From: Bacteroidales bacterium H10
GTDB lineage: Bacteria > Bacteroidota > Bacteroidia > Bacteroidales > Muribaculaceae
Direction: 5' to 3'
Assembly: GCA_001701295.1 (NCBI GenBank)
Contig: DAAV01000051.1
Span: 10,721-17,450 of the forward strand
Length of the DNA stretch: 6,730 nucleotides
Below are positions 1,708-6,663 of this stretch, piece after piece. The position numbers and the translations under genes were made by a program. Within the stretch, counting starts at the first letter, position 1. Each line of letters begins with the position of its first letter. The notes beneath the pieces are model-generated. The model was not told where the DNA came from and did no database searches. It saw nothing but the letters and a program-made list of their open reading frames with translations.

Positions 1708-2064
1708 TTAGTGGCGTTTGGGGAATAGATGATTCAAAATTATTGTTGGTAATGCTACAATATTAGCGGTTGCGGAAGTCCATAGAGCTATAATAACCGC
1801 ATCAGACAATTGCCTTACTTTTGTTGCATCGGGATTTAATAATTCCCATGAATAGCTAATTACGAAATACTCCCACCATAAAAGCACCCCCAATATTACT
1901 AACCCATAAATCCATTTTAGATTTATGTCAGTAGCTTTTTCTCTACGCGCAATTTTCTCCTGTTTCCGTTTAGATTCGCTGTCGATATCATTAAGTGTAG
2001 GCGCAAGCGGTTCGTCAGCATCTGTAACGCCCCATTGTGCTATAGGTGCATCATTTTCGCTCAT
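1708..2064 (-). CDS. Small two-TM membrane protein, candidate toxin of a Panacea-type TA pair
   Basis: 118-residue protein of no recognised family. An acidic N-terminal tail (1-30) leads to a lysine/arginine-rich stretch (KRKQEKIARREK, 32-43), then a first hydrophobic segment at about 51-72 (WIYGLVILGVLLWWEYFVIS), a short polar loop, and a second at about 87-114 (AVIIALWTSATANIVALP) ending in PKRH. The basic residues before the first and after the second segment predict both termini in the cytoplasm. The start ATG shares one base with the TAA of the upstream antitoxin-like gene (TAATG), so translation is probably coupled. Panacea antitoxins are known to pair with very diverse toxins, including small membrane-acting ones; on that precedent and on position I infer that this is the toxin, acting on the inner membrane. 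The sequence alone does not prove toxicity; it could be an accessory membrane partner. Confidence 0.7.
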   Translation of the reverse strand: MSENDAPIAQWGVTDADEPLAPTLNDIDSESKRKQEKIARREKATDINLKWIYGLVILGVLLWWEYFVISYSWELLNPDATKVRQLSDAVIIALWTSATANIVALPTIILNHLFPKRH

Positions 2065-2570
2065 TACGCTTGTTGTGTTACGTTAATCATTTGGGAGAAA
2101 TACTCATAGATATATGCGTCTGGGATTTCGTTGCCCCACTTAAAATTAGGCATATGAGTGGTTTCTTCCCAAGCAGAATTGGGACGATGAGACCATGCGG
2201 TAAGTTGTCCAGCGGTCTTGTCTCCAAACCCCTCAAACACAAACTGAATAATGCTTTTAAGATATTCGTCATCCTTTACTTCTGACAGCAATGGATAATC
2301 CATTGTTATGTTGGGAATATCTGCTTTAAGCAATTTATTGCGTGTTGTGGGGAATACAGGACCATACGGCCATGCTTGTGGATGCTCACCGCAGAGACGG
2401 TTTTTGCCAATAACAAGGTTAGCTCCATATGCAATGTATAGGAGCTTTTGCGCCTTCGTAAGATTGATTGAAAACTTGTGCAAGTTCGCCCAAGCTACTA
2501 TGAAGAACGCAACCACAACACTATTATAGCGGTAGGTGTCGCTGAACATATCGTTGGAATTTACAGTCAT
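2064..2570 (-). CDS. Panacea-domain (SocA-like, DUF4065) antitoxin candidate
   Basis: 168 residues, almost entirely one Panacea/DUF4065 domain, the family that includes the SocA antitoxin and GepA-like phage-encoded proteins. Visible hallmarks are LTKAQKLLYIAYGANL (37-52), matching the family's L-x-K-x-QKLLY helix, then CGEHPQAWPYGPVFP (60-74), matching its 'AW-x-YGPV' motif, and further on GFGDKTAGQLTAWSH (114-128) before a W-E pair, corresponding to the 'L-x-x-x-TH-x-x-x-x-W' part. In characterised Panacea systems this domain neutralises a toxin encoded next door. Here the gene comes first and overlaps the membrane-protein gene by one base, the usual antitoxin-toxin order. A Bacteroidetes promoter (TTTG-N20-TAATTTTG) ends 38 bases upstream of the ATG and a perfect palindrome covers its -33 element, which fits autorepression, although no separate DNA-binding domain is obvious. 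Family confident; antitoxin role inferred. Confidence 0.86.
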   Translation of the reverse strand: MTVNSNDMFSDTYRYNSVVVAFFIVAWANLHKFSINLTKAQKLLYIAYGANLVIGKNRLCGEHPQAWPYGPVFPTTRNKLLKADIPNITMDYPLLSEVKDDEYLKSIIQFVFEGFGDKTAGQLTAWSHRPNSAWEETTHMPNFKWGNEIPDAYIYEYFSQMINVTQQA

Positions 2571-3008: not shown

Positions 3009-3872
3009 TCAATCGTTTATAATCTCGTTCCCATCGGCTCTTTCATCTTCAATTATAGCGTTTCTGTGATAACCATGCCGCACAAATGGGTCTACAAAAA
3101 TAAGCTCCTTGTACCATTCTCCAAACTCATTTTTCTTATTTTGCATACGCCAAAAACCACGGACATAAATATCATTGTCATTGACTATCGTTCTAAACCA
3201 TCGAGAATCCATGACAATTATCTCTTGGCCTAATAGGTTGATTACTTTTTTCTTTTCAACGTATTCAAGTGGAGTACCGTCAATCTCTGTGAATTTTCCT
3301 TGCGGAACAACTACTGTTTCGACTTTAACATACTTCTTGACGGCTACATAAGAAGATATGAAATTAGCATAAGATGCGATAAATTGTTGACGTTGTTCTA
3401 ATGTCCCACTGAAAAGGCTATTGTCAGCTATTAGGGATTGAGGCATACCAACGCCTATTTCTTTAGTGCTGACATTGCAAGAATAAAAATTGAAAATGCT
3501 TTTACCGTCATGTTCGGTAAAGCACCAAAGGTGCAATTCATTACCACCAAAGCCATAAACTATCGTTTCATTCTTCCTAATAAGGAGTATCCCACATTCC
3601 TCGGATTTGCTAAATTCTTCATATAGGTCAGGCATTATCTTGTCAAAGGATTTATGGCTCTTAAACATAATATCCGCAAATGAGGGCATAACCATTTCAG
3701 GCAATCCCCAATTAGGACATTGTAAGCGTATATCGTTCAAATGACCGAGATAAGAGAATAGCAAATCTCTGTTAATCGGAATTGAGACATTTGGCAACAA
3801 AATATTCTTGGCCCTCTTAGTATCTTTAGGATTAAGCAGCCAAGTAATAATAGGACGTTCCTTAATAATCAT
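3009..3872 (-). CDS. Hypothetical protein with aromatic C-terminal 'RGFWRMQ ... RHGYHR' region
   Basis: I do not recognise this 287-residue protein. It has no signal peptide and no membrane segment. The N-terminal half is rich in hydrophobic and aromatic residues (for example PNWGLPEMVMPSFADIMF, 53-70). A central part (95-125) reads like alternating beta strands (GILLIRKNETIVYGFGG, then LHLWCF). The C-terminal region is the most distinctive: DSRWFRTIV (222-230), RGFWRMQ (238-244) and LIFVDPFVRHGYHR (257-270), a W/H/R-rich pattern that I have the impression recurs in uncharacterised Bacteroidales and phage-associated proteins. ATG at 3872 leaves 11 nt after the stop of the preceding gene. An earlier ATG at 3929 would give 306 residues and a 46-base overlap and cannot be excluded. 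It is the last gene of the run that starts at 4494, and its codons are visibly more AT-rich than those of the methyltransferase. Confidence 0.75.
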   Translation of the reverse strand: MIIKERPIITWLLNPKDTKRAKNILLPNVSIPINRDLLFSYLGHLNDIRLQCPNWGLPEMVMPSFADIMFKSHKSFDKIMPDLYEEFSKSEECGILLIRKNETIVYGFGGNELHLWCFTEHDGKSIFNFYSCNVSTKEIGVGMPQSLIADNSLFSGTLEQRQQFIASYANFISSYVAVKKYVKVETVVVPQGKFTEIDGTPLEYVEKKKVINLLGQEIIVMDSRWFRTIVNDNDIYVRGFWRMQNKKNEFGEWYKELIFVDPFVRHGYHRNAIIEDERADGNEIIND

Positions 3873-3883
3873 AAAATCAGGGG

Positions 3884-4327
3884 TTAATAAATCTGTCTTA
3901 TCCACATTTCGGAAGACTGTGTACCCCATTGTACATGCCAATTCCTTCCGGTAGCTTTATCCAATAATATAAATTGATACATGTTCTTAGTCGGATATAA
4001 TTCAAAAGAATTAAGCCCATTGTACCAAGAAAGATCTGTGTCATTCAAGGTCGCAGAAAATTCATCCTTAGATTTGAGTGACCATTGTATTAACTCAAGT
4101 TTCCCTGTTTGTGTATCTAATTTAATTAAAATATATATATTTTCAGTTGGATATATCTTGTAACGTTCAGATATGTTTTGTTTCATCTTCATAGTTACAA
4201 GTTCTCTCATAAGTTCAGCGGTACGAACTGAGATGGAATCATTAGGAGAACTGGGGATGGAATCAGTCTGTGCTTTACCTGTCATGAATAGCGGTAAAAG
4301 TAAAAGGATTAGAATAAGGCGTCTCAT
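3884..4327 (-). CDS. Secreted protein with two YPT-x-N / LD-x-x-TG / QW repeats
   Basis: 147 residues. A classic signal peptide (RR followed by LILILLLLPLFMTGKAQ) predicts cleavage after Ala19, just before Gln20, a common Bacteroidetes site; there is no lipobox cysteine, so a soluble periplasmic or secreted protein is expected. Two 28-residue repeats follow: 55-82 (RYKIYPTENIYILIKLD, ending in QW) and 107-134 (SFELYPTKNMYQFILLD, ending in QW), with the shared pattern YPT-x-N-x-Y-x-x-I-x-LD-x-x-TG ending in QW. I associate this pattern with small secreted proteins of gut Bacteroidales, whose function is not known to me. The gene begins 14 nt after the acidic small protein and ends 11 nt before the next, so the three are probably co-transcribed. 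An exported protein beside an R-M system is unexpected and argues for a separate role. Confidence 0.85.
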   Translation of the reverse strand: MRRLILILLLLPLFMTGKAQTDSIPSSPNDSISVRTAELMRELVTMKMKQNISERYKIYPTENIYILIKLDTQTGKLELIQWSLKSKDEFSATLNDTDLSWYNGLNSFELYPTKNMYQFILLDKATGRNWHVQWGTQSSEMWIRQIY

Positions 4328-4494: not shown

Positions 4495-4521
4495 TATGAA
4501 TAATGAGATTGAGGATCGTAG

Positions 4522-4554
4522 CAAACTTATTCCTGATAACGTTCCGGGTACAAA
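4522..4554 (-). promoter_or_regulatory. Bacteroidetes-type promoter at the end of the endonuclease gene
   Basis: On the minus strand TTTG (4554-4551) is followed after 21 nt by TAAGTTTG (4529-4522), a full match to TTTG-N19..21-TAnnTTTG. The -7 box includes the TAA stop codon of the endonuclease gene. Initiation near 4515 would give a leader of about 20 nt before ATG 4494. It would drive the acidic protein, the secreted protein and the 287-residue protein separately from the R-M genes. Confidence 0.6.
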
Positions 4555-5447
4555 GTCCGTGAAATTGCTTCTTTATATACATTCCCTTCGGGAAGATTGA
4601 GAGAAGAAAAAGCCTCTTGAACCTTGTACACTGTTGTACAATGTTCCTCAACAATACCCAATGGGGTGATCTCGCCATCTCTTTGCTCCTTGATAGCATC
4701 ATAGGCTATGAAGTTTATAGATGCCGGTTGACTTGGGAATTTAGGCAACTTCTCCGTTCCACCAAGCCTATCAAGTATTCTTTGGTATACAGGTTTGGGA
4801 CAAACGAGATATAGACCGCTTCTACAAAGGTCTTCGCGCTGTAATACTTGGCCTTTGTATATGATTTGTGGGATAATCCTCTTTGACACGTTTTCCCAGT
4901 TAAGACCTGCTGTATCGCTAACGACTTCGCGACTTTCAGCAAGTATCTGCTGAGCTTTGCCATAGCTTCCCGTGGTGTCAATAGTTTGTACTTCGATTGC
5001 TGTAAGTTCGGCAAGTTCACCATTACCATCCAAACGAGCAAGCACCCAATCGACAAAATAAGATCCCATTCCTTTCCTTTGGGGAAGTCTCAATTCGCCG
5101 CCCCAGCCTTTACCGAAAACTGCGATAGCTCCGCCTTCTTTTTTAGCTTTCTCTACAGCAACGCGGCCGGCATATAGGTTGAGTTGTTGGTGGAAAGCCT
5201 TTTGCGCAATGAGATGTAGCATTTTATAGTTATCGGCATATAGTCTGATGGGGCAACAGATCACATTGGGAGAGCCTTCCGTTTTCTGTCTAATCGCGCA
5301 TACGCCGGATATTATCTTTTCTCTTGCCAGTGTTTTAACACAGAAACTGCCAAGGAAAGGACAATTTTTCCTCGATGCAGTCGTAAGTGCTGCCTTAGAT
5401 TTATCAGAGGCCGCATATCCAAAAAATTCTGCTATATATCCTGCCAT
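4527..5447 (-). CDS. NotI-family type II restriction endonuclease
   Basis: 306 residues, matching the NotI restriction endonuclease family (PF12183). It opens with YIAEFFGY, nearly the FIAEFFGH of NotI. Four cysteines in the family's metal-binding arrangement follow: Cys29 (NCPFL), Cys36 (CVK), Cys50 (SGVC) and Cys65 (CCPIR), which in NotI hold a structural iron. The PD-(D/E)xK-type core is intact: GGELRLP (116-122), Asp133 in VDW, then Glu152 and Gln154 in AIEVQTID, followed by GSY, equivalent to NotI's Asp160, Glu182 and Gln184. It is shorter than NotI (383 residues as I recall), mostly in the C-terminal half, so its target may differ. The ATG lies one nucleotide after the methyltransferase stop, giving tight coupling in the protective order of methylase first. 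It should cut unmethylated incoming DNA in the cytoplasm. No residue required for catalysis appears to be missing. Confidence 0.92.
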   Translation of the reverse strand: MAGYIAEFFGYAASDKSKAALTTASRKNCPFLGSFCVKTLAREKIISGVCAIRQKTEGSPNVICCPIRLYADNYKMLHLIAQKAFHQQLNLYAGRVAVEKAKKEGGAIAVFGKGWGGELRLPQRKGMGSYFVDWVLARLDGNGELAELTAIEVQTIDTTGSYGKAQQILAESREVVSDTAGLNWENVSKRIIPQIIYKGQVLQREDLCRSGLYLVCPKPVYQRILDRLGGTEKLPKFPSQPASINFIAYDAIKEQRDGEITPLGIVEEHCTTVYKVQEAFSSLNLPEGNVYKEAISRTLYPERYQE

Positions 5448-5448
5448 A

Positions 5449-6636
5449 TCAGTAATTTTCTACAATGTTATGAAGACATTCCCCTATTGCTTTAGCAAGC
5501 AAAGGAGGCACAGCGTTGCCAACTTGTGCAAACTGTTCGGCTAAAGAGCCGTTAAAAATATAATGGTCGGGGAACGACTGTATGCGTGCAGCCTCACGAA
5601 CAGTAAATGAACGATCTTGGTCGTAGTGTATGAAAGCGCCCCAGTGAGGGTCACATTTAGTTAAAATCGTGGATGCTAAACCATCCTTAGTAACGCGGCC
5701 ATAACGCTTGGTATGGTCAGAGTGTCGTGCCTTTTGCATTCCTTTGGGAAGCATATCAAACGGGATGTCAGTCCAGTTACCCCCCGGTCGAATATAAGTC
5801 ATGCGCTCAATGTTTTGTTTTGAAAGAGCTGGCGATTCATGGTTATATACACCGGGCGAACCTTGTCGTAGTGAGCGTTGGTAATCACAGAAAGGCTCAC
5901 ATCGATATTCTTTTACTGTTTCTCCGCGTTCGCCACATTTTAAGACTGGTAAATCACCTATTGCCTCGTGCACGGTAGTGAACCGTGCATTTACATTTGT
6001 GGACGGAGTACAGACGAGATTTCTGCCATCAAACGTAGAGGTGAAATTAGGCCGAATTGGCGCATGAAAAACAGGAGTTGGAAAAGCACAGTCAGGCAAC
6101 TCTGCACCTCTGAAACCTATTATTATCGTTCTCCATCTCATTTGTGGAACGCCATAGTAGGCCGCGCCTAAAATGCGTACATCTGCACCATATCCAAGAT
6201 TAGCAAGCGCCTCTAATATGGCGTGAAGTGTTGCACCGTGCTCGAACGAGACAAGACCGGGAACGTTTTCAATAAGAACGACTTTCGGCATAAAAGCAGA
6301 TACAAACCGCAAATAATCCTTGAAAAGGTGGTTGCGGTGATCCTCGTTACTACGAACTGGGGCATTAATAGAAAAACCTTGACAAGGAGGTCCACCAGCA
6401 AGGAGGTCAAGTTCGCCTTTAATGAGTCCAAGGCCATCTCTGACTATATCTGCGTCTATCGAGCGAATGTCATTTGTGACGACTTTAGCGCCAATATGAT
6501 TACGAGCGTAAGTACTTGCATAAACAGGCACGACCTCATTAGCAAAAAGACTATGAAATCCCGCCTCAGATAAACCCTCTGAGAGTCCTCCGGCACCTGC
6601 GAACAGGTCAATATGCGTAAAGAGTTTATCGCTCAT
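5449..6636 (-). CDS. DNA (cytosine-5-)-methyltransferase of the R-M pair
   Basis: 395 residues with all main motifs of a C5-cytosine methyltransferase (Dcm/HhaI type), transferring a methyl group from S-adenosylmethionine to cytosine. Motif I is DLFAGAGG (10-17), motif IV GGPPCQGFS with catalytic Cys85, motif VI ENV (123-125), motif VIII QMRWR (165-169), motif IX around REAARIQSFPD (347-357) and motif X QVGNAVPP (371-378). The target-recognition region lies between motifs VIII and IX (about 170-343). There is no extra N-terminal helix-turn-helix domain, so any autoregulation would have to act through the catalytic protein. ATG 6636 starts directly before the catalytic fold; a TTG at 6651 would add five residues and is less likely. 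The gene is followed after 1 nt by the NotI-like endonuclease, whose sites it is expected to protect. No clear TTTG/TAnnTTTG promoter is visible in the 94 bases upstream, so the promoter may be atypical or beyond the window. Confidence 0.97.
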   Translation of the reverse strand: MSDKLFTHIDLFAGAGGLSEGLSEAGFHSLFANEVVPVYASTYARNHIGAKVVTNDIRSIDADIVRDGLGLIKGELDLLAGGPPCQGFSINAPVRSNEDHRNHLFKDYLRFVSAFMPKVVLIENVPGLVSFEHGATLHAILEALANLGYGADVRILGAAYYGVPQMRWRTIIIGFRGAELPDCAFPTPVFHAPIRPNFTSTFDGRNLVCTPSTNVNARFTTVHEAIGDLPVLKCGERGETVKEYRCEPFCDYQRSLRQGSPGVYNHESPALSKQNIERMTYIRPGGNWTDIPFDMLPKGMQKARHSDHTKRYGRVTKDGLASTILTKCDPHWGAFIHYDQDRSFTVREAARIQSFPDHYIFNGSLAEQFAQVGNAVPPLLAKAIGECLHNIVENY

Positions 6637-6648
6637 GCCTTTATAACG

Positions 6649-6663
6649 CAAAGAACTTCTTTG
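6649..6663. promoter_or_regulatory. 15-bp palindrome in the methyltransferase leader
   Basis: CAAAGAA (6649-6655) and TTCTTTG (6657-6663) form a perfect dyad around one central base, 13-27 bases upstream of the methyltransferase ATG. The position fits an operator that controls methyltransferase expression, a common need in R-M systems. The binding protein is unknown. Confidence 0.45.

Follow-up and report, generated by a model that had tools for sequence, protein, structure and literature searches.

A probable mosaic membrane toxin encoded beside a Panacea antitoxin in a Muribaculaceae genome

A small membrane protein encoded beside a Panacea gene in Bacteroidales bacterium H10 (Muribaculaceae) is likely, judging from sequence comparisons, a mosaic toxin: its first 32 residues (the leader) and its two-helix membrane part (the hairpin) appear to derive from different toxin lineages. 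The pair lies in a stretch of 6,730 nucleotides (contig DAAV01000051.1, positions 10,721 to 17,450), which was analysed as a whole and is here termed the window. We consider it somewhat more probable than the contrary that the two genes form a toxin-antitoxin pair in which the Panacea protein restrains a small, mosaic membrane toxin, gripping it by the leader and the adjoining basic stretch while the hairpin can be exchanged. In the course of evolution, Panacea has taken dozens of different toxins as partners. Such variety of partners is already published, and the probable mosaic toxin is the new result. Panacea partners are reported to swap often, with driving and enabling forces called unclear and recombination near transposons or prophages suggested (PMC8832971). 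The locus offers a putative natural splice inside the toxin itself.

Both reading frames lie on the minus strand, the Panacea gene at 2064-2570 (168 amino acids) and the small gene at 1708-2064 (118 amino acids). A preliminary description of this DNA had reported that they overlap by one base, and this is borne out: at the junction, GCGTAATGAGCGAA, the TAA stop codon of the Panacea gene and the ATG start codon of the small gene have one A in common. The upstream product is a standalone Panacea (DUF4065/SocA-like) domain, the identity of which is certain from its match to Pfam PF13274 (E 8.7e-11; 43.2 bits against a cut-off of 25.7). SocA itself is ruled out, as the NF047745 equivalog model scored 65.1 bits against the NCBIfam cut-off of 190. 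A GPV motif at residues 70-72 (2355-2363, minus strand) is invariant in 15/15 rows of alignment A6, and a double substitution in the GPV motif of the Vibrio harveyi PanA is reported to abolish neutralisation (PMC8832971). The best AlphaFold2 model of the window Panacea shows a standalone domain with high confidence (pLDDT 89); the remaining four models reach 42-55. PDB sequences gave no match to this protein, and a PDB fold search with its model returned nothing usable (lowest E 3.5).

The same stretch carries further genes. A C5 DNA methyltransferase gene (5449-6651) and an adjoining gene for a NotI-like restriction enzyme (4527-5447), both on the minus strand and recognised by family search, likely constitute a type II restriction-modification pair (4527-6651). 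Three small reading frames without an assigned family are also on the minus strand, and for the overlapping frames of 310 (3009-3941) and 147 amino acids (3884-4327) searches of Pfam, PADLOC and NCBIfam gave no passing match. Ahead of the Panacea gene, CGGTCGGA occurs four times inside 90 bases (2763-2852), a copy number seen in 0/200 shuffles of the window; among 52 loci checked, it recurs only in L039 and L046, with one copy each. Promoter-like and terminator-like sites at the locus were found in numbers at chance level, and an Rfam search gave nothing at gathering score. A minus-strand gene with an HATPase_c_4 domain (84-1484, in the region 84-1556) has a 5' part that looks shortened: in comparison with PHROG 12156, some 90 N-terminal positions are absent, near the end of the toxin gene, and a weak match to an AlbA_2 tail falls under the cut-off.

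The small protein begins with an acidic leader (residues 1-32; 1969-2064, minus strand; 8 D/E, 1 K/R) that is mostly without predicted structure. A basic juxtamembrane stretch follows (residues 33-53, 7 K/R; 1906-1968), and then hydrophobic segment 1 (residues 54-75; 1840-1905), recognised by hydropathy, and hydrophobic segment 2 (residues 90-113; 1726-1797), recognised by hydropathy and alignment A3 and lying inside the conserved SDAVIIALWTSATANIVALP, all on the minus strand. Hydrophobic stretches of the protein fall within residues 44-73 and 86-111. In the AlphaFold2 model, which has low confidence (mean pLDDT 65), residues 24-76 and 88-113 are helical and residues 1-23 are devoid of structure, with pLDDT below 50 for residues 1-3 and 5-26. 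The two hydrophobic segments and the basic stretch ahead of them are thus as first described, based on composition and hydropathy, the helical state of the basic stretch coming from the low-confidence model.

Close relatives of this protein are few (10 proteins in a single-sequence search), and a search with a ten-sequence profile yielded at least 140 related proteins at E ≤0.001. In genome contigs, the named relatives found belong to Alistipes, Muribaculaceae and Dyadobacter. The conserved core of the family comprises DI.LK..YG near helix 1 and SDxVxIAL.TSATANI.ALP.II..YLFP in helix 2. None of the family models in Pfam, NCBIfam or PADLOC gave a passing match to the small protein. A weak hit to Pfam DUF3611 (E 0.01, 16 of 27 bits) was set aside, as were matches to PHROGs (best 0.059) and PDB sequences (best 0.06). 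Searches of plasmid and phage records by tblastn (E 0.01) and an initial viral scan, both with the window toxin, gave no match, and comparison of the low-confidence toxin model with viral models returned nothing usable (lowest E 0.12, for A0A8S5MQV7; probability 0.96, 26% identity).

A connection to a known toxin emerged through Escherichia coli. The E. coli prophage PhiR47_1, from a phage collection, has genes annotated as PanA and PanT, and DNA 95-100% identical to them is carried by 79 of the 5426 E. coli genomes searched. The copy with full identity encodes the PanA WP_000287252.1, the E. coli PanA listed as tested in Table 1 of PMC8832971, and the same protein is the PanA in 7 of the nine E. 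coli regions examined. The toxins beside it are WP_000019187.1, WP_000019186.1, WP_021563277.1, WP_000089360.1 and WP_370602600.1; the exact tested toxin, WP_000019185.1, was absent from the nine regions, which hold only other alleles beside the tested PanA. A sister profile, built from nine hairpins linked to Panacea and free of E. coli sequences, scored 43.3 bits against the E. coli PanT (best of 3000 block shuffles, 17.1), and the window-family profile scored 23.8 bits (best of 3000, 11.0), so that for each profile 0/3000 block shuffles of the E. coli protein reached the real score. The two hairpin profiles match each other with an hhalign probability of 99.4%. The neighbour of a Panacea from a Pseudomonas phage (P0243), also considered, gave no match to the hairpin.

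This profile homology places the 118-residue protein, at a distance, in the E. coli PanT lineage. It supersedes the earlier statement that the toxin matches no known family, and through it a family of gut Bacteroidota proteins without previous assignment is connected with a membrane-toxin lineage that has been tested. Among the tested toxins, those of E. coli and Bartonella are reported to cause membrane depolarisation and large-pore or pore formation, and that of Helicobacter depolarisation only (PMC8832971). Because its hairpin is homologous to that of the depolarising, pore-opening E. coli lineage, the window toxin would likely act by damaging the inner membrane. Its relatives and their neighbours thus lend good support to the preliminary proposal of a Panacea pair with a membrane-acting toxin, a proposal that missed the mosaic nature of the toxin. 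A different role would be that of a non-toxic membrane anchor or effector partner through which Panacea senses infection, with toxicity weak or nil. The restriction-modification pair in the window and the presence of relatives on phage contigs fit such a role, and among 25 selected PanAT pairs, 8 had toxins that did not prove toxic in E. coli, 3 resisted cloning and 5 were toxic without rescue (PMC8832971). Against it stands the distant relative adjoining the tested E. coli PanA, which is likely an allele of the depolarising and perforating toxin of that study, and we regard the anchor or effector role as unlikely.

Linkage was examined by searching with toxin profiles only and then checking the upstream gene for Panacea. 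A Panacea lay directly upstream in 3/3 such loci on genome contigs and in the single locus (1/1) on viral contigs. An order-level scan of 393 genomes gave five matches, one of them L002 again (L004), and the other four all have a Panacea upstream. From 395 Bacteroidota genomes came 22 matches, and 18/18 with a readable upstream side have Panacea directly upstream, one of these being L003 again (L055). L063 was excluded from the count because its contig starts about 225 bases upstream, which makes that side unreadable, and L068-L070 were dropped as spurious (E 2e-4 to 6e-4; frames of 671, 557 and 43 amino acids, without Panacea). In total, Panacea is directly upstream in 25/25 distinct toxin-first loci with a readable upstream side, the opposite of the scarcity of Panacea neighbours that the preliminary description had named as counting against the pair. 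Together with the number of relatives, this linkage indicates that the small gene is more than a chance reading frame.

Starting from Panacea, a hairpin protein adjoins 11 of 25 places (the Panacea of L024 being unconfirmed by Panacea profiles). The hairpin thus goes with Panacea, yet Panacea has other partners, as published. Every hairpin-profile match among 2597 reading-frame pieces adjoins a Panacea; nearly all the loci in this check had been chosen for a toxin or a Panacea, the unrelated DNA amounting to 50 kb of L039, with 0 matches, and L004 and L028-L031, being copies of other loci, were skipped. When 121 toxin clusters were compared with 120 Panacea clusters, their longest contigs were equal in exact length 38 times (36 toxins), against 0-6 coincidences at each offset from 1 to 10.

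Several further features of these loci were seen. A second Panacea-linked family of about 140 amino acids, ending in ...FIETNFGDIYDH or nearly so, is encoded in L022 (1875-2309), L023 (925-1341) and L027 (downstream of Panacea); it has no match to the hairpin profiles and is a candidate for another Panacea partner. L032 (1917-2615) and L033 (1923-2498) encode hairpin toxins of about 190-230 amino acids with long extra N-terminal parts, adjoining Panaceas of the wider clade of the window. Some genomes hold several such places, with four Panacea matches in G1174 and three hairpin matches in G1001.

The mosaic became apparent when the two parts of the toxin were compared separately. A search of viral contigs with the window Panacea identified two phage contigs, L010 and L011 (IMGVR_UViG_3300035327_000216), on which Panaceas 76-77% identical to the query (76% in L011) lie near portal and head genes. 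L011 carries a toxin gene with the same one-base overlap, and its junction has the same 14 bases as the window. Its toxin shares 24/32 leader residues with that of the window and 14/73 hairpin residues. The toxins of the L001 and L002 loci show the opposite pattern, with 5/32 and 6/32 identical residues in the leader and 51/73 and 48/73 in the hairpin. The L001 Panacea is 22% identical to that of the window (149 columns), and for L002 a local alignment spans 31 columns only. Identity to L011 drops and identity to L001 and L002 climbs across residues 33-44 (1933-1968, minus strand), which we infer to be the zone of the ancestry switch.

When the leaders of all 44 remaining pairs were compared with that of the window, only L011 and P0003 stood out, their scores being reached by 0/1000 shuffles each; the next-best leader, that of L060, was reached by 15/1000, the shuffles having been run on the 12 best rows, window included. 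The Panacea next closest to that of the window belongs to L008 (40% identical), and the leader of its toxin falls outside the 12 most window-like. A leader-pattern scan of viral contigs recovered only L010 and L011, both already known. In L010, the corresponding region (4513-4862) differs in length by one base from that of L011, and its hairpin frame is open from 4557 and discontinuous with the leader.

The same combination of leader and hairpin recurs in P0001, P0002 and P0003, which argues against the window protein being an assembly accident. P0003, closely related to the window toxin, and a Panacea 77% identical to that of the window (P0187) are on contigs of equal size (54,994 bases); for contigs of at least 10 kb, 10 exact size matches between toxins and Panaceas were seen against 0.03 expected. 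P0002, with the same type of leader and hairpin, shares its contig size of 1356 bases with a Panacea of the other lineage (P0155), in a size class with 7 exact matches seen and about 1.0 expected by chance, and this pair may be a true counter-example to the co-inheritance of leader and Panacea.

Trees of Panaceas and hairpins were built from 45 pairs, namely the window, 28 loci and 16 pairs matched by equal contig size. The latter represent 16 of the 19 size-matched toxins whose contigs reach 3000 bases or more, with P0022, P0084 and P0086 left out; size-matched pairs on contigs below 3000 bases, and hence P0002-P0155, were not included, nor were L010, L063 and L073. The Panacea tree unites the window with P0003 and L011 (98/93) and leaves L008, L007, L032 and L033 outside this clade. 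In the hairpin tree, L011 groups with these same four (96/89), and the window and P0003 sit within the L001/L002 clade (100/99). For the other rows, agreement between the trees is partial, with several groups found in both.

These topologies bear on the simplest alternative, in which leader, Panacea and hairpin share one vertical history and the hairpins of the L011 lineage merely diverged fast. The distant homology of the hairpins detected by hhalign would permit such divergence in principle, but the nesting of the window hairpin within the L001/L002 clade speaks against it. Constraining the 19 hairpin-clade members to one group in the Panacea tree cost 38.0 log units (AU p 0.00028), and constraining the hairpin tree to unite the window, P0003 and L011 cost 66.5 log units (AU p 0.00013). 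Both single-history readings are accordingly rejected under the model used, with the caveat that several rows have long branches and that the groups to be tested were named after pairwise identities and the hairpin tree had been seen. We consider vertical descent highly improbable.

Across all 45 rows, Panacea and hairpin distances correlate at 0.48, a value reached by 0/1000 permutations, and at 0.58 once the window and P0003 are removed. Discordance is strongest in the two rows so removed (about -0.2 each), followed by L057 (-0.05) and L009 (0.08). By these comparisons, hairpins tend to move with their Panaceas; the window lineage departs from this most clearly, its switch being placed between toxin residues 33 and 44.

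Published work on Panacea pairs bears on the mechanism. Tested PanAs protect against their own toxin only (PMC8832971). In the PanT-PanA pair of B. choladocola, Panacea is predicted to contact the unstructured N-terminus and the pre-membrane helix of the toxin, a prediction backed by two substitutions (PMC10440598). The simplest joint reading of this specificity, the swapping of partners, the predicted interface and the mosaic is that the leader and basic stretch would serve as the grip of the antitoxin and the hairpin as the exchangeable, damaging part. Free toxin would insert its two helices into the inner membrane, leading to depolarisation or perforation, and Panacea would prevent this by binding the acidic leader and the basic stretch ahead of the membrane part. 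Since recognition would depend on the leader, the hairpin behind it could be replaced by a new one with no adjustment of the antitoxin. From the nesting in the hairpin tree, a lineage with the window-type Panacea and leader would have acquired its hairpin from the L001/L002 lineage, perhaps via phages, given that relatives of the window Panacea and leader occur on two phage contigs. In its strongest form, this reading makes the leader a portable neutralisation tag, with membrane hairpins exchangeable behind a fixed tag, a proposal that we hold tentatively and rate just short of evenly balanced.

Alternatively, the pair and the mosaic may both be real and the leader have no docking role, having stayed with Panacea through adjacency, with the toxin gene by chance the site of the crossover. 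The leader starts within the Panacea stop codon, in a junction conserved between the window and L011, and any crossover within the toxin gene would leave it in place; the P0002-P0155 match, moreover, may combine a leader and a Panacea of different lineages. Mere adjacency accords less well with the retention of 24/32 residues in a region mostly without predicted structure, which suggests constraint, and with the interface predicted in the equivalent part of the B. choladocola toxin (PMC10440598). We judge a passive leader unlikely, if well worth considering. Should the portable tag hold true, it would provide a concrete route for the swapping of Panacea partners, with phages bearing the same tag as vehicles. 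The window, L011 and L001 constitute a ready-made natural trio for asking which part of the toxin the antitoxin reads.

No report of a mosaic PanT was found among the listed titles and abstract openings on Panacea toxin-antitoxin systems, DUF4065/SocA (since 2022), chimeric or swapped toxins, or prophage PanAT. The main texts of PMC8832971 and PMC10440598 contain no word beginning with 'chimer', though the supplements of these two papers may list a Bacteroidota cluster with this hairpin.

Among known systems, the E. coli PanAT (PanA WP_000287252.1, toxin cluster T3; PMC8832971) resembles the window pair in having Panacea first, followed by a small toxin with a charged N-terminal part and a C-terminal hydrophobic hairpin; the hairpin is homologous to that of the window by profile, and the similarity is only distant. 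It differs in the length of its toxin (182 amino acids), the longer N-terminal part of which has no significant likeness to the window leader, and in its gene arrangement, the genes being non-overlapping and 22 bases apart in L034. The PanT-D11:PanA pair of B. choladocola (B. apis), as described in PMC10440598, likewise combines a standalone Panacea with a toxin consisting of an unstructured N-terminus, a short helix and a membrane part. Closer in sequence are the pairs between which the window toxin appears to be divided: those of L001 (Alistipes) and L002 (Muribaculaceae) have the hairpin type of the window behind a different leader, with a distant Panacea in L001, whereas the phage-borne pair of L011 has a close Panacea, the same leader and the same one-base overlap, followed by a different hairpin.
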